Of a DNA stretch of 64,000 bases, positions 1 through 11,658 are shown piece after piece; within the stretch, counting starts at the first letter, position 1; every line of letters starts with the position of its first letter. Origin of the DNA: Chloroflexota bacterium (GTDB taxonomy: Bacteria > Chloroflexota > Anaerolineae > Anaerolineales > UBA4823); NCBI GenBank assembly GCA_029265355.1, contig JAJUJL010000014.1, forward strand, positions 62,001-126,000, in the 5' to 3' direction. The notes beneath the pieces are model-generated. The model worked only from the letters and a program-made list of their open reading frames with translations, did not search any database and was not told the DNA's origin. Position numbers and translations under genes: made by a program.

Positions 1-239
1 AGACTTATGAATGCGGCATCGAAACGGTCGGCGATACCTCGGTGCAGTTCCGCGTCCAGTACTACCTGTTCACCCTGGTTTTCCTGATCTTCGATGTGGA
101 AATCGTTTTCCTCTACCCGTGGGCTGTTGCCTACGAACAACTCGATTTATTTGCAGTTGTCGCAGGCATACTTTTCATCTTCCTGCTGGTTGACGGCTTA
201 ATATTTGCCTGGCGCAAAGGCGCTTTGGAGTGGGAGTAA
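1..239 (+). CDS. nuoA: NADH-quinone oxidoreductase subunit A, 3' part
   Basis: This is the C-terminal part of a small membrane subunit of respiratory complex I; the start lies before the window and the open frame runs from base 3. The translation opens with the YECG motif that marks the NuoA loop, continues with a [12 protein letters not shown] membrane segment typical of the family, and ends after a second hydrophobic segment with GALEWE. NuoA sits at the junction of the membrane and peripheral arms next to NuoH. The next gene is nuoH, so the peripheral-arm genes must lie upstream or elsewhere. A hairpin follows the stop codon. Confidence 0.93.
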
Positions 240-304: not shown

Positions 305-329
305 AGTTTGATTATTGAGGAGTTACTCT

Positions 330-1538
330 ATGGGTGATCCAATAACTGCGATTTCTCTCTGGTTGGATGGATTGCTGGCCGGCTGGGGGCTGGCGCCGGC
401 CTTGATCATCGTCATAAAAGCGCTGCTGGGTGTGGGCGCTTTGGCGACTGCGGTGCTGCTGGTGGATATCTTCCTGGTTTGGGTTGAGCGCAAAGTGGTG
501 GCGCGTTTCCAGGATCGCTTGGGTCCGAACCGCCTGGGACCGTTTGGTTTGATCCAGCCATTTGCCGACGTGATAAAGCTCTTGATCAAGGAGGATATCA
601 CTCCAGTGGGGGCTGATCGCATCGTGTACAACCTGGCGCCGATCATGGCGCTGGCGACCGTGCTGCTGCTGTGGGCGGTCATCCCGCTTGCCCCAACGGT
701 GGTGGGCACCGACGTGAACGTGGGCGTGCTGTACATCGTCGGCGTCGGCGCGCTGGGCACCCTGGGAATCATCATGGCCGGTTGGGCGTCCAACAACAAA
801 TATGCGCTGATTGGCGCTTTCCGCACCGTGGCGCAGATGGTTTCCTATGAAGTACCGATGGTCATTGCTTTGCTCGTGCCGGTGCTGCTGGCGCGTTCGA
901 TGGGCATCAACTCGATTGTCAACGCTCAAGACAGTTACTGGTTCATCCTGGTGGCGCCGATCGCCTTTTTGCTGACGCTGATCACTTCGATCGCTGAACT
1001 GGGACGCGCCCCTTTCGACCTGGTGGAAGCCGAGTCCGAGATCGTGGCAGGCTTTCACATCGAATACACCGGCATGAAGTTTGGCTTGTTTTACGCTGGC
1101 GAGCTGTTGCACGCGCTGACACTCTCGGGCATCGTGGCGTCGCTCTTCCTGGGCGGCTGGCGTGGCCCTGGCGCAGAGTCGTTCCCACTGCTTGGCATTG
1201 TGTACTTCTTCGCCAAAGCATTCTTCCTGTACTGGGTGATCATGTGGGTCAAATACTCCCTGCCGCGCATACGCATCGACCAGATGCTCAACCTCAACTG
1301 GAAATTCTTGACGCCTTTATCGCTGGTGGTGCTGGTGGTTACTGCACTGCTGGATAAGGCCTTGGTGGGTGTGCAACCCTGGGTGTATGTGCTGGTCTTG
1401 CTGGCGGCGAACCTGGTCATCGCCTGGGTCACCTTGCAAATCCTGCGCTCCCGGGCGCGCAAAGAGCGCCAACGGGTGGCGGAACCGAGACCGATTGCCC
1501 GCCCGCCCGCGGCGCCGGTATCTTCGCAGGGCGCCTGA
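330..1538 (+). CDS. nuoH: NADH-quinone oxidoreductase subunit H
   Basis: NuoH forms the quinone-access channel and links the peripheral arm to the proton-pumping subunits. The protein is 402 residues, longer than the usual 320-350, and has about eight membrane segments. The family-typical segments VWVERKVVARFQDRLGPNR near the start and IAELGRAPFDLVEAESEIVAGF in the middle, which carries the acidic quinone-channel loop, are both visible. The extra length is a C-terminal Arg/Pro-rich tail after the last membrane helix. The ATG at 330 follows GAGGAG at 317-322; an upstream TTG at 315 would overlap that ribosome site and is less likely. There is no nuoI between this gene and nuoJ, unlike the common order. 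Confidence 0.97.
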   Translation: MGDPITAISLWLDGLLAGWGLAPALIIVIKALLGVGALATAVLLVDIFLVWVERKVVARFQDRLGPNRLGPFGLIQPFADVIKLLIKEDITPVGADRIVYNLAPIMALATVLLLWAVIPLAPTVVGTDVNVGVLYIVGVGALGTLGIIMAGWASNNKYALIGAFRTVAQMVSYEVPMVIALLVPVLLARSMGINSIVNAQDSYWFILVAPIAFLLTLITSIAELGRAPFDLVEAESEIVAGFHIEYTGMKFGLFYAGELLHALTLSGIVASLFLGGWRGPGAESFPLLGIVYFFAKAFFLYWVIMWVKYSLPRIRIDQMLNLNWKFLTPLSLVVLVVTALLDKALVGVQPWVYVLVLLAANLVIAWVTLQILRSRARKERQRVAEPRPIARPPAAPVSSQGA

Positions 1539-1585: not shown

Positions 1586-2095
1586 ATGACAGCTTTACAA
1601 ATCATTTTCTTGATTACGGCGGTGATCACCCTGGGGGCAGCGGCGATGGTGGTCATCACGCGCAACCTGGTGCACGCCGCCCTATGGTTGATCATGACCT
1701 TTTTTGGCATCTCTGTGCTGTACGTTTTGTTGAACGCCGGTTTCCTGGCGGTGGCGCAGGTGGTGATCTACATCGGCGCCATCTCGATCTTGATGATTTT
1801 TGCCATTATGCTCACCCGCCGCGTGCAGCAGGATTTTGGCCCACAAACCAATGCTGCCTGGCCCTGGGCTCTGGTGATCGCTGCGGCGCTCTTCGGCGGC
1901 TTGATCTGGATCTTCTCCGGTTGGGGCAACTTCTTCACCCAGGCGCCGGTGATGGGCGAGCGCGCCGACCCGCTGCGCCAGCTCGGCATGGCGCTGGTTT
2001 CTCCAGAGCAATACGTCATCCCCTTCGAAGTGGCCTCGGTGATGCTGACCGCTGCTCTGATCGGCGCCATCATGGTCGCCTGGGAACGAAAGTAG
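1586..2095 (+). CDS. nuoJ: NADH-quinone oxidoreductase subunit J
   Basis: NuoJ is a membrane subunit of complex I whose third helix takes part in coupling. The 169-residue product has about five hydrophobic segments. It contains the segment AQVVIYIGAISILMIFAIML, which includes the family's Y-x-G-A-I helix with its pi-bulge region. The size matches the family. It starts at an ATG preceded by GGAGGAGG and is followed 12 bases later by nuoK in the same orientation. Confidence 0.96.
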   Translation: MTALQIIFLITAVITLGAAAMVVITRNLVHAALWLIMTFFGISVLYVLLNAGFLAVAQVVIYIGAISILMIFAIMLTRRVQQDFGPQTNAAWPWALVIAAALFGGLIWIFSGWGNFFTQAPVMGERADPLRQLGMALVSPEQYVIPFEVASVMLTAALIGAIMVAWERK

Positions 2096-2107: not shown

Positions 2108-2416
2108 ATGATCCCGTTATCTTATTTCCTGGTTTTTGCTGCAGCGCTCTTCTCGATCGGCCTGTACGGTGTGCTGGCGCGCAGAAACGCGATTGCCATC
2201 CTGATGGGGGTCGAGCTGATGCTCAACGCGGTCAATATCAACCTGGTGGCTTTCTGGCGCTACATCACGCCGACGCAAATCGCCGGGCAAGCTTTCGCGG
2301 TGATGGTGTTTGCCGTGGCGGCTGCAGAAGTGGCTGTTGGCCTGGCGCTGGTCATCTCCATTTACCGCCGGCGCAACACGGTCGTGGCGGACGACATCGA
2401 CTTGTTGAAGTTCTAA
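2108..2416 (+). CDS. nuoK: NADH-quinone oxidoreductase subunit K
   Basis: NuoK is the small three-helix subunit that lies between NuoJ and the antiporter-like subunits. The 102-residue product has the family length. It carries two membrane glutamates in characteristic places: GVELMLNAVNINLVAF in helix 2 and AAAEVAVGLALVISIYRR in helix 3. These are the conserved acids of the central proton axis. The ATG follows CAGGAGGCGGT. The gene is closely spaced with nuoJ and nuoL. Confidence 0.97.
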   Translation: MIPLSYFLVFAAALFSIGLYGVLARRNAIAILMGVELMLNAVNINLVAFWRYITPTQIAGQAFAVMVFAVAAAEVAVGLALVISIYRRRNTVVADDIDLLKF

Positions 2417-2443: not shown

Positions 2444-4627
2444 ATGGCAACTGAACTCATCATCTGGTTGATCCCCCTTCCGCCGTTGCTGGCGTTTTTT
2501 ATCATTACGCTGCTGACCACGCGCAGCAAGGCGCTGAGCCACACGATTGCGGTGGGCGCCGCGCTGCTCTCGTGGCTGGGCAGCATGGTGGTGTTCTTCC
2601 GCGCCATCCAGGTTGAACACTTTGGAGAGCACCCCTTCGTATCTTCGATCCCCTGGCTGGCAACCGGCGACACTTATTTCCGCATCGGCGTGCAGATCGA
2701 CCCGCTCTCGGCTGCTTCGCTGTTCTTTGTCGCCTGGACGGTGCTGATGATCTTCATCTACAGCGTCGGCTACCACAACTACGGGCAGCCCGAGGGCGAC
2801 CACGACCTGCCTGGTTTGCCGCCGCACGGCGCCACGGTGAAAGACGCCCACGGGCATGAGCACCGCGTGCTATCGGTTGAGCCGATGTACTCGCGCTTCT
2901 TTGCTTTCATTGGCTTATTTGCCTTTGGTATGTACACGCTGGTGGTCTCCGACAACCTGCTCACCCTGTTCGTGGGTTGGGAGATCATGGGATTATGTTC
3001 TTATCTTTTGATCGGCTTTTGGTACGGCAAACCCTCCGCCCGCGCCGCCATGATCAAAGCCTTCCTGACCACGCGTGTGGGCGATGTGTTCATGCTGCTG
3101 GGCCTGGCGTATCTCTACTCCCAGACCGGCACGCTCAACTACCGCGAGATCTTCTACAACGCTGAGACGTTGCACATGCTGGCGGAGCACAGCTCGGGCT
3201 TCCTGGGGCTCTCGGCAGCGGCGCTGATCGGTATCCTGCTGTTCATCGGTACCGTCGGCAAGTCGGCGCAGTTCCCGCTGCACGTCTGGCTCCCGGATGC
3301 CATGGAAGGCCCCACGCCAGTCTCCGCCATGATCCATGCCGCGACGATGGTCTCTGCCGGCGTGTACATGGTGATCCGCATCTTCCCGCTGCTCTCGGCT
3401 GGAGCGGAGCATGCCGCCACACCGGCGATGCTGGTCATGTCGATCATCGGCGCCTTCACCGCATTGTTTGCGGCGACGATCGCCGTGGCCCAGGACGATA
3501 TCAAGCGCGTCCTGGCGTACTCCACCATCTCGCAGCTCGGCTACATGGTGGCGGCGCTGGGCATCGGCGCCTACGTGGCGGCGGCTTTCCACCTGATCAC
3601 CCACGCGTTCTTCAAGGCGCTGCTCTTCCTCGGTTCCGGCTCGGTGATCCACGGCATGGAGCACGGCGTGCTGCACACCGGCAATCACAGCGTTGATCCG
3701 CAGAATATGAAGAATATGGGCGGTCTGCGCCACAAGATGCCGATCACTTTTTGGACTTTTCTGGTCGGCGGATTTGCTCTGTCGGGCTTCCCGCTGGTCA
3801 CGGCGGGTTTCTGGTCCAAAGATGAAATCCTGGCGGACGCCTGGGGGCACGGGCATTACGTGGTCTTCGGAACGCTGGCGCTGGCGGCGCTGCTGACCGC
3901 TTTCTACACCATGCGCCAGATCACGATGACGTTCCTGGGCGAGCCGCGCACCGAAGAAGCCAAACACGCTCACGAGACGCCCTGGACAATGACTTTCCCG
4001 CTGGTGGTGCTGGCGGTCTTCGCTGTGGGTGCAGGGTGGGTGGGCATCCCCGAGCATTTTCCGGTCATCGGCGGCCTGGTTCCCAACTGGTTCCACGAGT
4101 TCGTTGGCGGCACGCTGCTCGAGCACCCGGAGGCAGTGGAATTCAACATCATCCCGCTGCTCACCTCGCTGGTGGTGGCGTTGGGCGGCCTGTACGCTGG
4201 TTGGTTGGCGTACCGCAATTATTCCCAGAGCCGCGTGGACGCAGCCGAGAAAGCGTTGGGCGGCCTCTACCATCTGCCGCGCCACAAGTACTACTTCGAT
4301 GAGCTGTACGATCGTATCTTCATCAAGCCGGCGATCTGGCTGGCAGAATCCTTCACCTCGGCCTGGATGGATCGCGGTGTGATCGACGGTTTCCTGCACT
4401 GGGTGGCGTACATCACCGGGCGCATTGGCAATTTCTTCCGCGATGCGATCGACAAGCCAATTGTCAACGGGCTGGCGGATAAGCTGGCTGACACGATGAA
4501 ATGGCTGGGCCGCGTCTTCCCGCCAGTGATCCAAACCGGCCGCGTGCAGCAGTACATGATCATGGCGCTGGTCAGCCTGGCGGCGTTCAGCGCCCTGTTC
4601 TACTACCTGCTGGTAATGACACCCTAG
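2444..4627 (+). CDS. nuoL: NADH-quinone oxidoreductase subunit L, long form with extended lateral-helix region
   Basis: NuoL is the distal antiporter-like proton pump of complex I and carries the lateral helix that lies along its neighbours. At 727 residues it is over 100 longer than typical bacterial NuoL. Core motifs are intact: GWEIMGLCSYLLIGFWY with the helix-5 glutamate, and GKSAQFPLHVWLPDAM with the helix-7 lysine (Lys273). Two insertions are visible. One is a His/Gly-rich loop at about residues 111-147. The other is roughly 30 extra residues at about 640-690, between the LYDRIFIKP segment and the QTGR motif before the last helix. The second insertion is where NuoL is lengthened in complexes with an additional NuoM, and two nuoM genes follow here. 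Confidence 0.96.
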   Translation: MATELIIWLIPLPPLLAFFIITLLTTRSKALSHTIAVGAALLSWLGSMVVFFRAIQVEHFGEHPFVSSIPWLATGDTYFRIGVQIDPLSAASLFFVAWTVLMIFIYSVGYHNYGQPEGDHDLPGLPPHGATVKDAHGHEHRVLSVEPMYSRFFAFIGLFAFGMYTLVVSDNLLTLFVGWEIMGLCSYLLIGFWYGKPSARAAMIKAFLTTRVGDVFMLLGLAYLYSQTGTLNYREIFYNAETLHMLAEHSSGFLGLSAAALIGILLFIGTVGKSAQFPLHVWLPDAMEGPTPVSAMIHAATMVSAGVYMVIRIFPLLSAGAEHAATPAMLVMSIIGAFTALFAATIAVAQDDIKRVLAYSTISQLGYMVAALGIGAYVAAAFHLITHAFFKALLFLGSGSVIHGMEHGVLHTGNHSVDPQNMKNMGGLRHKMPITFWTFLVGGFALSGFPLVTAGFWSKDEILADAWGHGHYVVFGTLALAALLTAFYTMRQITMTFLGEPRTEEAKHAHETPWTMTFPLVVLAVFAVGAGWVGIPEHFPVIGGLVPNWFHEFVGGTLLEHPEAVEFNIIPLLTSLVVALGGLYAGWLAYRNYSQSRVDAAEKALGGLYHLPRHKYYFDELYDRIFIKPAIWLAESFTSAWMDRGVIDGFLHWVAYITGRIGNFFRDAIDKPIVNGLADKLADTMKWLGRVFPPVIQTGRVQQYMIMALVSLAAFSALFYYLLVMTP

Positions 4628-4650
4628 GCTGCAGGCACGAGGAGCGAACG

Positions 4651-6201
4651 ATGGATTTCATTGTCAATAACTACCTGCTTACGCTGATATTGTTCACGCC
4701 AACCCTGGGCGCCTTGATCCTGTTTTTCTTGCCAGGTGAGAACAAGAGCCTGATCCGCTGGGCGGCTTTCTTGCTGAGCTTCATCCCGTTGGCGCTTTCA
4801 CTGGCGCTGTGGTTCCAATTCGACTCGACGCAGGCTGGCTTCCAGTTCGAGCAGCGCGCCGCCTGGTACCCTGCCATCAACTCTTCTTACCACCTGGGTG
4901 TGGATGGCATCTCGCTGACCATGGTGCTGCTGACCACACTGCTCACCCCGCTCTCGATCCTGGCCTCTTTTGGCATCCAGGACCGGGTGAAAGCCTTCAT
5001 GATGCTGTTCCTGTTCCTGGAAACGGGCATGCTGGGCGTGTTCCTGGCGCTGGACCTGCTGCTCTTCTTCGTTTTCTGGGAGATCGGCCTGGTGCCAATG
5101 TATTTCTTGATCAACCAGTGGGGCAGCGAGAAGGGCGAGCGCACCGTGTGGGGCGGGCGCAAGATGCCAGCCCGCGCTTACGCCTCGTTCAAGTTCATGA
5201 TCTACACCATGGCGGGTTCGCTGGGCTTGCTGCTGGCAATCCAGATGATCGGCGTGGTGTCGGGCACCTTCGACCTGATGGAGCTGTACCGCATCTGGCC
5301 CAGCCTGGATAAGCCCTTGTTTGGGTTGAGCATCAACGTGGTGAAGAGCATCGCCTTCTGGGCGTTCACGATCGCCTTCGCCCTGAAGGTGCCGGTGTGG
5401 CCGTTCCACACCTGGCTGCCGGACGCCCACACCGAAGCGCCCACCGCCGGCTCGATGATCCTGGCGGGCGTGCTGCTCAAGCTAGGCGCGTATGGTTTTC
5501 TGCGCCTGGTGCTGCCGCTGTATCCCACCGAAGCCAGGACCTACGCCGGGGCGCTGGCCTTCCTGGCGGTGATGGCGATCATCTTCGGCGCGCTGGCCTC
5601 CTTCGGGCAGAGTGACTTCAAACGGCTGGTGGCCTATTCCTCGGTCAATCACATGGGTTTCGTGGTGCTGGGCATCGCCGCCGCGGCTGCTGCTGCGGGC
5701 ACACAGGATGCGCACATCGCGATGAACGGCGCTGTGCTGCAGATGTTCAACCACGGCCTGTCGGCGGCTGGCATGTTCTTCCTGGTGGGCGTGATCTACG
5801 AGCGCACCCACACCCGCGATCTGAACGAATACGGAGGACTCTTCCCACTGGTGCCTGTATACGGGGCTATCTTGATGTTTACCTCCATGGCCTCGCTCGG
5901 GCTGCCGGGGTTGAACGGTTTCATCTCCGAGTTCCTGGTGGTGCGGGGCTCCTGGCCCATTTTCAGCGTCTACACCGCCCTGGCGATGATCGGCCTGTTC
6001 TTCACCGGCGCTTACATTTTGAAGGGTATCCGCCAGGTGCTGCACGGGCCGTTGAACGAAAAGTGGGCCGGGCATTTGACCGAAATCAACGCCCGTGAAG
6101 TCTTCGTCATCGTTCCCCTGATGATCTTGATCTTGTGGATTGGCGTGTACCCGGACTGGATCCTGGGCGTGATCAACCGGGCGGTTACAGCGCTATTCTA
6201 G
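4651..6201 (+). CDS. nuoM: NADH-quinone oxidoreductase subunit M, first copy
   Basis: This is an antiporter-like proton-pumping subunit of 516 residues with about 14 membrane helices. Pump residues are present: the helix-5 glutamate in FWEIGLVPMYFLI, the helix-7 lysine in ALKVPVWPFHTWLPDAH (Lys246), the helix-8 lysine in GVLLKLGAYGFLR, and the helix-12 glutamate in GFISEFLVVRG. The ATG follows GAGGAGCGAACG. The open frame extends further upstream inside nuoL but without a ribosome site. It is followed by a second, clearly different NuoM gene rather than by nuoN. All canonical residues being present makes this the conventional NuoM. Confidence 0.96.
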   Translation: MDFIVNNYLLTLILFTPTLGALILFFLPGENKSLIRWAAFLLSFIPLALSLALWFQFDSTQAGFQFEQRAAWYPAINSSYHLGVDGISLTMVLLTTLLTPLSILASFGIQDRVKAFMMLFLFLETGMLGVFLALDLLLFFVFWEIGLVPMYFLINQWGSEKGERTVWGGRKMPARAYASFKFMIYTMAGSLGLLLAIQMIGVVSGTFDLMELYRIWPSLDKPLFGLSINVVKSIAFWAFTIAFALKVPVWPFHTWLPDAHTEAPTAGSMILAGVLLKLGAYGFLRLVLPLYPTEARTYAGALAFLAVMAIIFGALASFGQSDFKRLVAYSSVNHMGFVVLGIAAAAAAAGTQDAHIAMNGAVLQMFNHGLSAAGMFFLVGVIYERTHTRDLNEYGGLFPLVPVYGAILMFTSMASLGLPGLNGFISEFLVVRGSWPIFSVYTALAMIGLFFTGAYILKGIRQVLHGPLNEKWAGHLTEINAREVFVIVPLMILILWIGVYPDWILGVINRAVTALF

Positions 6202-6227
6202 CGTGCTGTTTTAGCGTGAGGTGCTGA

Positions 6228-7700
6228 ATGCAGTTTCCAATCATAAGTTTCATCGTTTTTACCCCCATCCTGGCGGGCGTGCTACTGTTGCTCTTCCCCG
6301 CCGACCGCAAGACCGAAGTGCGCGTCACAGCCCTGGCAGCCGCCACTTTCTCGCTGGCGCTCTCGATCTGGCTGTATTTCTCGTACAATCTGCCGCAAGG
6401 CGGTTACCAGTTTGTCGAGAAATATGCCTGGCTGCCCGACCTGGGCATCTCGTACCATGTGGGCGTGGATGGCATGAGCGCCCCGCTGGTGCTGCTCACC
6501 GGCGTAGTCATGTTCACCGGTGTGCTCATCTCCTGGAAGATCGACGACCGGCCGCGCGAGTTCTTCGCCTTCCTGTTCATCCTGGCAACCGGCGTGTTCG
6601 GCGTATTCGTTGCGTTAGATCTGTTCATGCTGTTCTTTTTCTATGAAATCGCCGTCTTCCCCATGTACCTGTTGATCGCCATCTGGGGCTGGAAAGAGAC
6701 TCGCGAATACGCCGCCATGAAGCTGACGCTGTACCTGTTCGTAGGCTCGGTGATTGCCCTGGTCGGCGCGCTGGCTATGTACTTCATGTCGGGCCTCAAG
6801 ACCTTCGATATGCTCGCCCTGGAAGGCGCCAACTTCCCGATCTGGTTCCAGAACATCGCTTTCCCATTTGTCTTTTTCGGTTTTGCTGTGCTGGGCGGCA
6901 TTTTCCCCTTCCACAACTGGAGCCCGGATGGTCACGTGGCTGCACCCACGGCGGTTTCGATGTTCCACGCTGGTGTGCTGATGAAGCTGGGCGCTTTCGC
7001 TGCCCTGCGCGTCGGCATCATGCTGCTTCCGGAAGGCGCCAAGACGCACATGCCCTGGATCATCCTGCTGACGCTGGTCAACGTGGTCTACGGCGCCTAC
7101 ATCGCCAGCGTGCAGAACGATTTCAAATACGTCATCGGTTTCTCCTCGGTATCGCACATGGGTTTGGTGGCGATGGGTTTTGCCACGCTTAACCGAGAGG
7201 GCATGATCGGGGCCGGTGTGCAGATGTTCTCGCATGGCGTGATGACGGCTCTCTTCTTTGCTGTGGTCGGTATGATCTATGACCAGGCGCACACGCGCGA
7301 AATTCCCCGGCTTTCAGGCTTCCGGTTGTTCATGCCGGTGGTGGCGGTGGCTTTCATCATCGGCGGCCTGGTCTCGATGGGTATGCCGGGTTTTTCGGGC
7401 TTCATTGCTGAGTTTCCCATTTTTATGGGTGTGTGGGCGACCTATCCCTGGATCGCCATCGTGGCAGCCATCTCGATTGTGCTGACCGCATCGTATATCA
7501 TACGCATCATCAGCAAGGTCTTCTTTGGGCAACTCCCTGAAGAATTCGAGGGGCATATCACGGATGTGACCGTGTTGGATAAGCTGGCCCTGGTGGTGCT
7601 GTCCGTCATTTTGATCGGCGTCGGCGTCTACCCGCAAATCATGGTGCCGCTGGTCGAATCGGGCGTGAACAACGTCTTGCGCCTGTTGGGAGGTGCATAA
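6228..7700 (+). CDS. nuoM2: NADH-quinone oxidoreductase subunit M, second copy lacking the helix-7 lysine
   Basis: This is a second NuoM-type antiporter-like subunit of 490 residues, adjacent to the first and clearly diverged from it. The helix-5 glutamate (FFYEIAVFPMYLLI), helix-8 lysine (GVLMKLGAFAALR) and helix-12 glutamate (GFIAEFPIFMG) are kept. In helix 7 the usual lysine five residues before the P-[FL]-[HQ] turn is leucine (Leu222, in FAVLGGIFPFHNW), while NuoL, the first NuoM and NuoN of the same operon all have lysine there. The ATG is preceded by GAGGT. Its position fits an extra pump unit in a 2M-type complex. Whether it still moves a proton is not known. Confidence 0.93.
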   Translation: MQFPIISFIVFTPILAGVLLLLFPADRKTEVRVTALAAATFSLALSIWLYFSYNLPQGGYQFVEKYAWLPDLGISYHVGVDGMSAPLVLLTGVVMFTGVLISWKIDDRPREFFAFLFILATGVFGVFVALDLFMLFFFYEIAVFPMYLLIAIWGWKETREYAAMKLTLYLFVGSVIALVGALAMYFMSGLKTFDMLALEGANFPIWFQNIAFPFVFFGFAVLGGIFPFHNWSPDGHVAAPTAVSMFHAGVLMKLGAFAALRVGIMLLPEGAKTHMPWIILLTLVNVVYGAYIASVQNDFKYVIGFSSVSHMGLVAMGFATLNREGMIGAGVQMFSHGVMTALFFAVVGMIYDQAHTREIPRLSGFRLFMPVVAVAFIIGGLVSMGMPGFSGFIAEFPIFMGVWATYPWIAIVAAISIVLTASYIIRIISKVFFGQLPEEFEGHITDVTVLDKLALVVLSVILIGVGVYPQIMVPLVESGVNNVLRLLGGA

Positions 7701-7703
7701 GCT

Positions 7704-9167
7704 ATGACGATCGCATTCGAACCCTGGATGTACGTGGCAGTCTTGCCCGAAATTTTGTTGGTGGTGCTGACGTTGGTCGTGCTGGGCCTGGACCTGGCGC
7801 TGCCCGAGGAGCGTCGCGGTGGGTTGGGTTGGCTCACTGCTGGCGGCTTGACAGCTATCATCCTGGTGGGATTCGCCGTGGCCATGCCGGCTGGCGAACC
7901 GCGCCTGATGTGGGGCGGCATGTTGCGCCACGATTGGTTGGGCTTTGCCTTCAAGCTGACCGCCCTGTTCGCAGCAGCAGCTACCTCGCTGCTCTCCATG
8001 GACCTGGCGCAAGTGGGCAAGCGCGGCGAGTACTACCTGCTGCTGCTGGCTTCCACGCTGGGCATGATGCTGATGGGCTCAGCCGCCGATTTGGTCATGC
8101 TTTACCTGGCAATCGAGACCACTTCGATACCGCTGTATGTGCTGGCCGGCTTCCTGACCAGGGATGATAAATCCACCGAGGCCGGCTTCAAGTACCTGTT
8201 GTTTGGCGCGATGACCTCGGCGGTCATGCTGTACGGCTTCAGTCTGCTGTACGGCTTCACCGGCAGCACCAACCTTTACGAGCTGGCTTCTCTGGCGCAG
8301 GCCGGACAGCTCTCCCTGGCGTCGGTTTTCGGCAGCCTGTTGCTGGTGCTGGTTGGTTTTGCCTTCAAGATTTCCGCCGTGCCGCTGCAGTTTTGGGCGC
8401 CAGATGTGTACGAAGGCGCACCAACGCCGGTGGCCGGCTTCCTCTCGACCGCCTCGAAAGCCGCCGGTTTTGCGGTTCTGGTGCGGGTTTTGATGGCGGT
8501 GTTCCCTGGCATCCAGCCTTATTGGGGTGCGGTGATCTCCGCCCTGGCGGTAGCGACCATGACGCTGGGCAACTTCTTCGCGCTCAGCCAGAAGAACATC
8601 AAGCGCCTGTTGGCCTATTCCTCCATCGCGCATGCTGGCTACGCCCTGATCGGTGTGGCGGCGATCTCGATGCCTGGCTCCACCCTGGGCGCAACCAGCG
8701 TGGTGTTCTACCTGATCACCTACGTGGTCACCAATTTGGCAGCCTTCGGCGCCGTGGCGGCGGTGGGACGGGTGACTGGCTCCGACGAGATCGCTTCTTA
8801 TGCCGGGCTCAGCCGTCGCTCGCCCTGGTTGGCGCTGGTGCTGCTGGTGGCGCTGCTCTCGCTCTCGGGCATGCCGCCCTTCGGCGGTTTCGTGGTCAAG
8901 TTCGCCGTTTTCGCTGCCGCGGTGGAGGTGAACCTGATTTGGCTGGCGGTCATCGGTGTGCTCAACTCGATCATCGGCCTGTACTACTACCTGACGGTTT
9001 TGAAAGTGGTGTACTTGTACCGCTCTGAGGAGGAGGACAAGCCGATGCCGGTACCCGGCGGCTATGCCCTGGGACTGTTGGTGCTATGCGTCGGTATCCT
9101 GTTGATTGGCACGCTGTTTGCTCCCTGGTTCAGCTTTTCCAGCGGCGCGGCAGCGGCGCTGTTTTAG
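7704..9167 (+). CDS. nuoN: NADH-quinone oxidoreductase subunit N
   Basis: NuoN is the antiporter-like subunit that contacts NuoK. The 487-residue product has the family length and about 14 membrane segments. Visible motifs are YLAIETTSIPLYVLAGF (helix-5 glutamate), FAFKISAVPLQFWAPDVYEG (helix-7 lysine, Lys222) and LSLSGMPPFGGFVVKF near helix 12, where NuoN typically has lysine in place of glutamate. The ATG follows GGGAGG and the gene begins only three bases after nuoM2. It is the last gene of the complex I membrane-arm cluster, and an independent promoter follows. Confidence 0.96.
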   Translation: MTIAFEPWMYVAVLPEILLVVLTLVVLGLDLALPEERRGGLGWLTAGGLTAIILVGFAVAMPAGEPRLMWGGMLRHDWLGFAFKLTALFAAAATSLLSMDLAQVGKRGEYYLLLLASTLGMMLMGSAADLVMLYLAIETTSIPLYVLAGFLTRDDKSTEAGFKYLLFGAMTSAVMLYGFSLLYGFTGSTNLYELASLAQAGQLSLASVFGSLLLVLVGFAFKISAVPLQFWAPDVYEGAPTPVAGFLSTASKAAGFAVLVRVLMAVFPGIQPYWGAVISALAVATMTLGNFFALSQKNIKRLLAYSSIAHAGYALIGVAAISMPGSTLGATSVVFYLITYVVTNLAAFGAVAAVGRVTGSDEIASYAGLSRRSPWLALVLLVALLSLSGMPPFGGFVVKFAVFAAAVEVNLIWLAVIGVLNSIIGLYYYLTVLKVVYLYRSEEEDKPMPVPGGYALGLLVLCVGILLIGTLFAPWFSFSSGAAAALF

Positions 9168-9237: not shown

Positions 9238-9549
9238 ATGAGCCAAGCCGGTAAAACGCCAGAAAACAAACCTGCCCAGCCCATCATTCCGATGAAGTTC
9301 GGTGAGGTCGGGTTGCAGGTAGCGGGGATCACTTTATTCATTGTTTTGCTGTCGGTGTTCGGCGGCCTATGGCTGGACCGAGTTTTTGGCACCAAGCCAA
9401 TTCTGACGGTTATCCTGGTGGTAGCTTCCGCGCCACTTTCTTTATTCTTAACCGTGTGGGTAGCATTGCGGGCAGTGCGAGACCTGCCATCCGGGTCGCG
9501 GCAAAGCTCGCCGACAAATTTTTCAAAGGAGGACACGAGTGACGACTGA
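9238..9549 (+). CDS. AtpZ/AtpI-like small membrane protein
   Basis: This is a 103-residue protein with a hydrophilic N terminus, two membrane helices (about residues 25-45 and 55-80) and a polar tail. The segment [18 protein letters not shown] is typical of the AtpZ/AtpI group encoded at the head of ATP synthase operons, thought to help ion supply or assembly of the c-ring. Its last bases overlap the GTG start of atpB, which implies translational coupling. The start codon has no ribosome site but lies 9 bases after a good -10 element. The family assignment rests on context, topology and the GLWLDR motif; the exact subfamily is uncertain. Confidence 0.82.
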
Positions 9550-10609
9550 GGCAACGCCTAAGAAACGAACTCCGGTGAAGCGCTGGATCGTGCTGGCCCT
9601 GTTTGTGATCGGCGGCTATGCAGCGTTTGGCAGCATCGGTGTTCTAAAACCGATCAGTCCGGTGGTTGTGTTGCCCGCTGAGCCGACCGGGATCTCGATC
9701 GCCGGCTTTCCGATCACCAATACCATCCTGGCAACGCTGATTGCCGACCTGGTACTGATCTTGTTTGCGATTAGCGCTTACCGGTTCAGTAAGAGCGGCA
9801 AGCAGGTGCCTTCCGGTATGTACAACTTCTTCGAATTTCTGGTGGAGTTCCTGTGGAATTCGGTGAAGGGCGCAGCCGGCAAATGGGCGCCGCGCATCTT
9901 TCCGGTGGTCGCCACCATCTTTTTGCTGGTGCTGGCTGCCAATATGACCAAGCTGTTCCCGGGCTATGAAGCCATCGGCTACATGAAAGAAATTCACGAA
10001 GGTAAAACCGGCTACGCTCCGGTTAAGCTGTTCGACCTGGGCTCGATACCGGTGTACGGCCTGGATAAGAACCACCCTGTCATCGGCGCGGCGCATGGCG
10101 AGGAGCACGGTGAGGCTGCTGGCGGCGAAGCGCACGGCGAAGAGAGCGCTGCTGCGAAGGAGATGTGCACTGCTTGCGAGGTGGTGCCTTTCCTGCGCGG
10201 CTCTGCCACCGACCTGAACTTCCCGTTTGCCTTGGCGGTGATCACCGTGGTGTTGACCCAGGTCTACGGCGTGTGGGCGTTGGGGCCTTCGTATTTCTCG
10301 AAGTACCTGCCGGTGGGTCAACTGGTCAGCGGCGGTATCTTTGGTTTGATCAACTTTGGGGTGGGATTCCTGGAAATCATCCTGGAGTTTGCCAAGATCC
10401 TGTCGTTTGGCTTCCGGTTGTTCGGCAACATCTTTGCGGGCACGCTGCTGCTCTCCATTGTAGGCGCGCTGACCGCCATTGTGGTGCCGCCCTTCCTGTA
10501 TCTGTTTGAAGTATTCTTTGGCGCGATCCAGGCGTATGTGTTCTTCCTGCTGGCGACGGTGTTCATCAGCGGGGCCACGGTCAGCCATCACGCCGAAGAG
10601 CATCACTAA
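9539..10609 (+). CDS. atpB: ATP synthase Fo subunit a, with a His/Glu-rich insertion
   Basis: Subunit a provides the proton half-channels and the arginine that faces the c-ring. The essential arginine is in [16 protein letters not shown], and the terminal helices are typical. The protein is 356 residues, about 80 longer than E. coli subunit a. Most of the excess is one extramembrane loop at about residues 150-210 that contains a His/Glu/Gly-rich stretch (residues about 184-203) followed by a Cys-x-x-Cys pair (CTAC). The GTG start is preceded by AAAGGAGG and overlaps the upstream gene. The loop could bind metal, but that is only inferred from composition. Confidence 0.95.
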
Positions 10610-10658
10610 ACCTTAATGAAATCATACATCCAAAACCAGAGGACGAAGGAGACTTACC

Positions 10659-10901
10659 ATGAATGATGCAGCAGCTTTTATCGCGGGTATGAAGGTGTTG
10701 GGCGCAGGCCTGGCGATGTTGGGCGCTATCGGCGCGGGCGTGGGCGTGGGCATTGCCGCCTCGGGCGGTGTGCAGGCGATGGGACGCAACCCAGACGCTA
10801 CCCCCACCATCCAAACCAACATGATCCTGGGTATGGCTTTCGCTGAAGCCGTGGCGATCTACGCCCTGGCTGTGGCGCTGATCATCATCTTCGCCGCCTA
10901 A
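10659..10901 (+). CDS. atpE: ATP synthase Fo subunit c
   Basis: This is the 80-residue hairpin proteolipid that forms the rotor ring. Helix 1 carries the glycine-rich packing motif (GAIGAGVGVGIAAS), the polar loop has GRNPDA, and helix 2 has the ion-binding glutamate Glu63 in GMAFAEAVAIY. The residues that distinguish sodium-binding rings, a glutamine in helix 1 and Ser/Thr after the glutamate, are absent (Val30 and Ala64), so proton coupling is expected. The ATG follows GAAGGAGACTTACC. It lies between atpB and the b-delta fusion. Confidence 0.97.
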   Translation: MNDAAAFIAGMKVLGAGLAMLGAIGAGVGVGIAASGGVQAMGRNPDATPTIQTNMILGMAFAEAVAIYALAVALIIIFAA

Positions 10902-10920
10902 CCGCCAGAGAGGTAATTAA

Positions 10921-11658
10921 ATGGCTGCATTAGGGATCAACCTGGGTTTTTTCTTATTTCAGGTTTTCAATTTCACCATTTTGGCGACCTTGCTGTACGC
11001 CTGGGCGTACCGGCCGATCACCAATATGCTTGAAAACCGCAAGAATATCATCGCCCAGGGCCTGGAAGATGCTCGTATCGCTGCCGAGGCGCGCGCCAAC
11101 GCAGAGAAAGAAGCCCGCGAGATCATTGCCAAGGCCCAGGCGGAAGCCAACCAGAAAGTGCGTGAATCCACCGAGCGGGCAGCCGCTGCGGCGCGTGAGG
11201 TGATGGCGCAGGCCGAGGCGGAGGTTGCCAAGCTGCGTGAAAGCGCGGCCGCCGAAGCCACCCTGGAGCGCGATCGCGTCCTGGCGGATGTGCGCGGCCA
11301 GATCGCTGCCCTGAGCATGGCTGCCGCTCAGCGCCTGGTGGGCGAAGCCCTGGATGAGAAGCGCCAGCGCGCCCTGATCGATGAGTTCTTCTCCGGCGTC
11401 AAATCCGGCAAAGTTGTGCTGCTGGAAGGCAGCGCACTGAGCGGCGCTTCCGCTGAGGTGACCAGCGCTTTGCCGCTCACCCCCGCCGAGCAGGAAACGG
11501 TCAAGAAAGATGTGCTCGCCAGGATCGGAGCGCAGGCAACTGTGACCTTCCGCGTCGACCCGTCCATCCTGGGCGGCCTGGTGGTGCGCGTCGGCGATAA
11601 AGTGCTGGACGGCTCGGTATCGGGTCAGTTGGAAACGTTGCGCGCCGCCCTGCACTAA
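10921..11658 (+). CDS. atpF: ATP synthase subunit b fused to a subunit delta C-terminal domain
   Basis: Residues 1-30 form the single membrane helix of subunit b, followed by a long Ala/Glu/Arg-rich coiled coil to about residue 130. After that the protein does not stop. It continues through a helical region (LVGEALDEKRQRALIDEFF) into about 75 residues ending in FRVDPSILGGLVVRVGDKVL and a GQLETLRAAL tail, which is the signature of the delta (OSCP) C-terminal domain. At 245 residues this is a b-delta fusion with at most a reduced delta N-terminal domain. No separate delta gene or any F1 gene follows; the operon ends at a terminator 43 bases downstream. Confidence 0.9.
   Translation: MAALGINLGFFLFQVFNFTILATLLYAWAYRPITNMLENRKNIIAQGLEDARIAAEARANAEKEAREIIAKAQAEANQKVRESTERAAAAAREVMAQAEAEVAKLRESAAAEATLERDRVLADVRGQIAALSMAAAQRLVGEALDEKRQRALIDEFFSGVKSGKVVLLEGSALSGASAEVTSALPLTPAEQETVKKDVLARIGAQATVTFRVDPSILGGLVVRVGDKVLDGSVSGQLETLRAALH

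Follow-up and report, generated by a model that had tools for sequence, protein, structure and literature searches.

A Chloroflexota 2M complex I locus whose additional NuoM lacks the lysine of transmembrane helix 7

Complex I enzymes of the 2M type, which carry a second NuoM, are cited as natural enzymes with a raised proton:electron ratio, a view reached by counting subunits. Does one more antiporter-like subunit amount to one more pump? A locus in a Chloroflexota bacterium (assembly GCA_029265355.1; 5.05 Mb, 64 contigs, 98.45% complete) raises this question. The window, as we call the whole stretch of DNA that was analysed, comprises 64,000 nucleotides (contig JAJUJL010000014.1, positions 62,001 to 126,000; G000:C49:62001-126000 in our numbering). 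Its nuo cluster reads nuoA (3' end)-H-J-K-L-M1-M2-N and is followed by apparent F0 ATP synthase genes. The two adjoining NuoM proteins, M1 beside NuoL and M2 beside NuoN, both score over the TIGR01972 cut-off and are 36% identical. Judged by its genes, the locus is a regular 2M complex I, an already known enzyme class, and we infer that M1 and M2 share one complex. In the predicted complex, it is the extra subunit, M2, that departs from the canonical proton path.

Alignment to E. coli NuoM is ungapped in the region of transmembrane helix (TM) 7 and sets Leu222 of M2 opposite K234, where M1 and the NuoM of a second nuo cluster in the genome (on contig C26) have Lys. What window M2 is missing is one half of the Glu-Lys pair, the Lys in TM7; Glu in TM5, Lys in TM8, both His and Glu in TM12 are present. 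M1 has all canonical proton-path residues that were checked, and the canonical axis residues are conserved in window L, M1 and N. We followed this position through 37 M1-M2 pairs, namely those of the 35 complete 2M loci and two more from L024 and L035, excluding NuoM fragments below 440 residues such as the M2 of L015; L033, L034, L035, L041, L048 and L083 are close relatives among these pairs. At the K234 position M1 has Lys in 37/37 rows, and M2 has Leu in 35, Thr in 1, Ile in 1 and Lys in none. The other axis residues of M2 are largely kept (E144, H322 and E407 in 37/37, H348 in 35/37, K265 in 34/37), the three rows without K265 (L029, L038 and L042) having Lys one place earlier. TM7 of M2 offers no alternative titratable residue before His229. 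A TM8 His is present in 70% of the 37 M2 and absent from about 30%. In the neighbouring subunits, NuoN K217 is kept in 81/81 rows and NuoL K229 in 98/99, the last being a gap.

Single NuoM proteins mostly retain the lysine. It is present in 17/17 rows (16 distinct clusters) with one NuoM and a long NuoL lateral helix (HL), and in 26 of the 31 rows with one NuoM and an HL of canonical length. The other five (L057, L059, L061, L081 and L090) have Leu, so that these canonical-helix clusters have a lysine-less protein as their sole NuoM. A second sample, taken from our phylum sample, supplied 12 further tandem pairs (7 genera, 4 families), two of which are more than 95% identical to first-set pairs, together with 8 single-NuoM clusters that we chose. 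All 12 pairs have a long HL, Lys in the L-side NuoM, Leu in the N-side NuoM and the TM8 His. The single NuoM proteins have Lys in 8/8, with an HL of 51-52 residues in the seven whose NuoL lies in the stretch. Four of the 12 M1 matches (G028, G039, G048 and G075) include one TAA within the profile-matched stretch; the M1 open frames of this sample (509-513 aa) contain every residue named. Within the sample, a lysine-less M2 and a repeated docking unit on the HL, described below, are general features of the 2M class. Neither M2's absent lysine nor the repeated docking Asp was found in the complex I literature searched, which did not cover the founding 2M paper.

The lysine-less proteins also belong together by descent. 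In a NuoM tree of 128 rows (quick IQ-TREE run, midpoint root), with support from the Shimodaira-Hasegawa-like approximate likelihood ratio test (SH-aLRT) only, 42 rows fall in one branch with SH-aLRT 100, all 37 M2 plus the five lysine-less singles, without a single Lys-bearing row; L085, which bears Lys, joins just outside it. On this tree, the TM7 lysine would have been lost once. M2 as a recent tandem duplicate of M1 was rejected, given their 36% identity and the grouping of M2 with Bacillota-type single NuoM. M1 shares a fork, in 36 of 37 cases, with 9 of the 17 one-NuoM long-HL rows at weak support (80), and the remaining 8 are placed elsewhere. Over 36 loci, M1 proteins average 57.5% identity to their window counterpart and M2 proteins 57.9%, and M2 is therefore about as constrained as M1.

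Assignment to the 2M class draws on several features. An earlier sequence-only reading of this DNA had reported a 727-residue NuoL and two different nuoM genes in tandem, which the coordinates, the NCBIfam matches and the identity between the copies bear out. Its proposal of a 2M complex gains support from the gene order and from satellite genes elsewhere in the genome: contig C19 carries adjoining nuoB, nuoI and a fused nuoCD (577 aa, with both NuoC and NuoD matches in the fusion), the separate nuoBCDI arrangement of Chloroflexi 2M loci (excerpts of PMC7117926). The soluble part of the window complex most likely comes from these genes, which we assign to the window cluster because it lacks such genes. 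Window contig C49 carries no nuoF. The same reading held that a second nuo cluster using M1 or M2 would contradict it; such a cluster exists, on C26, and carries its own nuoM.

Comparison with known systems, drawn from excerpts of the papers cited, places the locus further. The Chloroflexi 2M complexes of Lost City (PMC7117926) and Chloroflexus aggregans (PMC8004040) have in common with it the nuoL-M1-M2-N order and the second NuoM, and those of the Lost City/Anaerolinea type share the separate nuoBCDI with fused nuoCD (PMC7117926). We found no structural difference from the window, and the literature passages do not mention the absence of the M2 lysine. The Nitrospira 2M complex (PMC6606698) likewise has two NuoM and a long HL; its L and M1 are distant from the window's in trees, and the M2 of L158, which comes from the genome of a Nitrospira record, is also without the TM7 lysine. 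The window has neither the single NuoM nor the HL length of canonical complex I. The E. coli K-12 enzyme (L094) has the same subunit families and the axis residues of window L, M1 and N but differs in its one NuoM and 48-residue HL region. Rhizobial green complex I, with two MrpD-like subunits replacing NuoL, is not what the window encodes, as the window's NuoL and both its NuoM score over their cut-offs; Complex_I_3 of Candidatus Manganitrophaceae is likewise built with two MrpD-like subunits where the window encodes NuoL (PMC9040806). Tandem NuoM pairs occur in 13 of 61 Chloroflexota genomes sampled, including 7/7 genomes of the window's class (its own, 5 of the same order and 1 of the same class), as counted from listed coordinates with matches weaker than E 1e-80 left out; contig splits could conceal pairs.

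We measured the HL as the residues between the conserved anchors YYFDELYD and QTGRVQ in 99 NuoL rows: 77 of 80 relative loci (the best 80 of 594 stretches), C26, 19 NuoL from further regions, the window and E. coli. L027, L045, L060 and L154 were left out as fragments, L145 has no NuoL in its stretch, and L086 and L155b are one gene counted as two rows. Lengths are bimodal, with 48-53 residues in 35 rows, 76-88 in 64 and none between. Window NuoL has 81 residues versus 48 in E. coli and 51-53 in the other 34 canonical rows. It exceeds the canonical length by 28-30 residues and carries the insertion of about 26-28 residues associated with 2M enzymes. AlphaFold2, run on a 40-row alignment, models the HL as a single unbroken helix with the extra residues within it, which agrees with the alignment and places the insertion site where the sequence-only reading had suggested it. 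The predicted local distance difference test score is 85-91 up to residue 660 and 83 for residues 661-670, and then falls through 71 and 70 to 55, so that confidence drops to 55-71 toward the far end. The roughly 30 extra NuoL residues of that reading hold for the HL, but the total length is also swollen by a loop before TM4 that is about 30 residues longer (40 between anchors vs 8 in E. coli), with AlphaFold2 confidence below 50 over residues 114-130; the 727-residue total therefore overstates the HL insertion.

The extra helix repeats a docking site. D648 on the Paracoccus lateral helix contacts NuoM H239 and Y315, and the study assigns the helix a purely structural role (excerpts of PMC9802314). 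Counted along the NuoL alignment, D648 maps to window Asp643; by a constant offset of nearby residues, H239 is equivalent to H241 and Y315 to Y317 of the E. coli protein. The docking place is occupied by Asp in 34/35 canonical rows, the exception being E. coli, whose Asp563, set two columns off by the aligner, we take to be the equivalent of the docking Asp. In long-HL rows the first Asp is present in 62/64 and the repeated Asp, about 26-29 residues on, in 52/64. A regular-expression search recovered the spaced motif in 28/64 long rows and 0/35 canonical rows, and the aligned Asp columns are the better measure. In complete 2M loci the first unit is nearly invariant (first Asp and M1 His241 in 35/35, M1 Tyr317 in 34/35). 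The second place holds Asp in 24/35, and otherwise Asn (7), Glu (3) or His (1). All seven rows with Asn have Phe317 in M2, but they form one clade.

A long HL does not imply a second NuoM. Among loci with L to N present, with 16 rows set aside as incomplete, every canonical-HL locus has one NuoM (31/31; two NuoM in 0) and all complete 2M loci have a long HL (35/35). The long-HL loci comprise these 35 rows and the 17 with one NuoM, and we rejected the HL extension as proof of 2M because 17/48 complete one-NuoM rows have it as well. The sequence-only reading had taken the long HL as a 2M sign; it is present here, but it is not confined to 2M loci. A long HL beside one NuoM is previously known for Manganitrophaceae, where, according to the excerpted description, the NuoL of complexes that have no extra pump also carries HL insertions of 26 residues (PMC9040806). 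Our one-NuoM long-HL clusters come from Chloroflexota, Zixibacteria, KSB1, Ignavibacteria, Armatimonadota and one actinomycete. They keep the second Asp in 17/17 rows and the first in 15/17, a retention that is unexpected if the second unit is without a partner. A search of 17 genomes with such clusters (14 of the clusters complete, 3 truncated where the contig stops) gave exactly two NuoM above the cut-off per genome, at two separate places. Where readable, the second clusters have their own L, M and N; those of L143, L145, L148, L151 and L154 are cut, lack an L, M or N member or hold part of L only.

The C26 cluster, with matches to NuoB, D, F, H, L, M and N, is itself of this kind. Its NuoL (L010 12481-14661) has an HL of 81 residues with its own insertion of different sequence, and AlphaFold2 confidence in that protein is below 50 over residues 647-649, 655-685 and 698-710. 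C26 and L156, whose inserted HL sequence differs, fall in a four-row clade (SH-aLRT 100) in which L139 and L157 have 51-52 residues. We rejected the idea that every one-NuoM cluster owes its long HL to an M2 since lost. This would fit L018, which is nested among 2M Anaerolineales and has neither an M2 nor a trace of one between M1 and N, but not the C26/L156 insertion.

The explanation that we consider quite probable as a whole is a Chloroflexota-type 2M membrane arm with antiporter-like L, M1, M2 and N, in which M1 and M2 are both docked and the gate of M2 is modified. A donor, NADH or other, would drive quinone reduction through the nuoB-CD-I products and NuoH, and the coupling signal would run the length of the membrane arm, from N by way of M2 and M1 to L. 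M1 would dock at the first Asp, beside L, and M2 at the second, between M1 and N, where it may relay the signal without the usual Glu-Lys gate, with modified pumping or none. Several observations weigh against this account. The 17 one-NuoM long-HL rows show that a second NuoM is not needed for a long HL. Of the 64 long rows, 12 (11 of which are 2M loci) have no repeated Asp, and Tyr317 is found in just 13/37 M2 (13/35 of complete 2M loci), so the residues lend little support to M2 docking at the second unit; to judge from them, the second contact would clearly be looser than the first. The co-residence of M1 and M2 in one complex is read from the genes, and the C19 assignment from what the window cluster lacks.

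How M2 works is the point on which the alternatives divide. As the sequence-only reading had it, an additional antiporter-like subunit is indeed encoded, but it is not readable as an extra pump when the TM7 lysine is missing. In excerpted sources, E. coli NuoM is reported to lose function when K234 is mutated, and Paracoccus work describes the Glu-Lys pair of NuoM as essential; a fifth proton can therefore not be inferred from subunit count. These reports are the main obstacle to M2 as a full fourth pump, giving five protons per two electrons with the TM7 lysine replaced, for example by the TM8 His or by water, which we hold as a tentative possibility, short of even. The retained axis residues (E144, K265, H322, H348 and E407) and a conservation equal to that of M1 speak for it, and the TM8 His, invariant in the second sample, could be a substitute, but about 30% of the first-set M2 lack it and TM7 has no other titratable residue before His229. 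The five one-NuoM clusters whose only NuoM is lysine-less, Heliobacterium among them, also favour it: because Heliobacterium mobile (L090) has only such a NuoM in the cluster seen, the lysine-less type presumably works in some way.

M2 might instead be a non-pumping spacer or relay, with four protons moved over a longer arm, a reading that we find rather unlikely. It would account for the loss of the TM7 lysine in all M2 examined, and HycC of E. coli formate hydrogenlyase offers a parallel: as described in excerpts of PMC5061711, it has Leu at NuoM K234, keeps the TM5 Glu and TM8 Lys as M2 does and tolerated all 18 substitutions tried. HycC, unlike M2, belongs to a hydrogenase complex, and the likeness is by description, not by alignment. 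A spacer would not be expected to keep a near-invariant TM5 Glu, TM8 Lys and TM12 Glu, and the Paracoccus work (PMC9802314, in excerpt) argues that one blocked subunit halts the whole enzyme. A broader combination takes M2 to come from one lysine-less NuoM lineage and to contribute no fifth proton in the canonical way, being instead a relay or a differently gated module, and takes the HL unit with its docking Asp as a ruler, one unit per NuoM. Complexes with a long helix and a single nuoM gene, the C26 complex included, would then also contain two NuoM, the second supplied by repeated use of that gene or on loan from the other cluster; we regard this combination as doubtful. It is highly improbable that M1 and M2 take up a single slot as alternative isoforms, or that M2 belongs to the C26 complex. 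The genome does have three NuoM over the cut-off and two NuoL, both with a lengthened HL, but C26 possesses its own NuoM, all complete pairs (35/35 and 12/12) have M1 and M2 side by side in one constant order next to a long HL, and G019, G021, G035 and G045 show the pair with no other NuoM at the thresholds used. The modified-gate 2M arm remains our preferred reading. Table 1 lists its components in the window.

Table 1 Features of the nuo cluster in the window (positions count from the first letter of the window)
Feature	Position	Strand	Basis or remark
nuoA, 3' end	1..239	+	PF00507 122.8 bits; whole gene C49:61883-62239, begins before window
nuoH	315..1538	+	NF004741 333.7 bits, cut-off 305; start codon TTG according to the open reading frame tool
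nuoJ	1586..2095	+	best NCBIfam match NuoJ 120.8 bits, under model cut-off of 154
nuoK	2108..2416	+	NF004322 130.1 bits, cut-off 128
nuoL, 727 aa, longer lateral helix	2444..4627	+	NF005141 635 bits, cut-off 556
Extra NuoL loop before TM4, about residues 112-144	2777..2875	+	separate from lateral helix
NuoL lateral helix, residues 615-696	4286..4531	+	AlphaFold2, one helix
Asp643, first NuoM-docking Asp of lateral helix	4370..4372	+	alignment, codon
Asp670, repeated docking Asp, 27 residues on	4451..4453	+	alignment, codon
nuoM1, 516 aa	4651..6201	+	TIGR01972 538.9 bits, cut-off 263.8
TM7 lysine of M1, Lys246 (E. coli NuoM K234)	5386..5388	+	alignment, codon
nuoM2, 490 aa, extra NuoM	6228..7700	+	TIGR01972 462.0 bits, cut-off 263.8
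M2 Leu222, replacing TM7 lysine	6891..6893	+	alignment, codon
M2 His247 (TM8), at the place of NuoL H254; absent in M1	6966..6968	+	alignment, codon
nuoN	7704..9167	+	TIGR01770 393.2 bits, cut-off 332.6

The start of nuoM1 is at 4651; the mechanical list of open reading frames places it earlier, at 4501. Among named records, the best NuoL matches within the best 80 of 594 stretches are metagenome-assembled genomes of Anaerolineales and Anaerolineae. One relative, L014 (5938-13862), has about 4.5 kb between nuoL and a nuoM1 that runs off the contig. Directly 3' of nuoN, at window 9238-11658, lie F0 ATP synthase genes that are a-, c- and b-like by sequence, the 245-aa b-like protein having a long C-terminal part; alpha/beta-type F1 genes are on a different contig (G000:C46:80819-84031). 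The genome also encodes a hydrogenase-4 (Hyf) type membrane cluster (G000:C4, L011 6892-13662), with B, D and F over NCBIfam cut-offs, and two antiporter-like proteins of 985 and 506 aa that are Mrp-like by size and match (G000:C19:68637-72782). On G000:C29 (L013 4940-6373), a coiled-coil protein is neighboured by an isolated NuoM-like membrane protein of 477 aa, whose Proton_antipo_M match is weak (49.5 bits) and which we considered as a candidate for a subunit missing from C26.

For annotators, these comparisons mean that a 2M enzyme should not be called from the length of the NuoL lateral helix alone. For the 2M class, all extra NuoM examined are without the lysine reported to be essential, and the neighbouring M1 always has it. 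The claim of a fifth proton thereby becomes a testable question: does a naturally lysine-less antiporter-like subunit pump?

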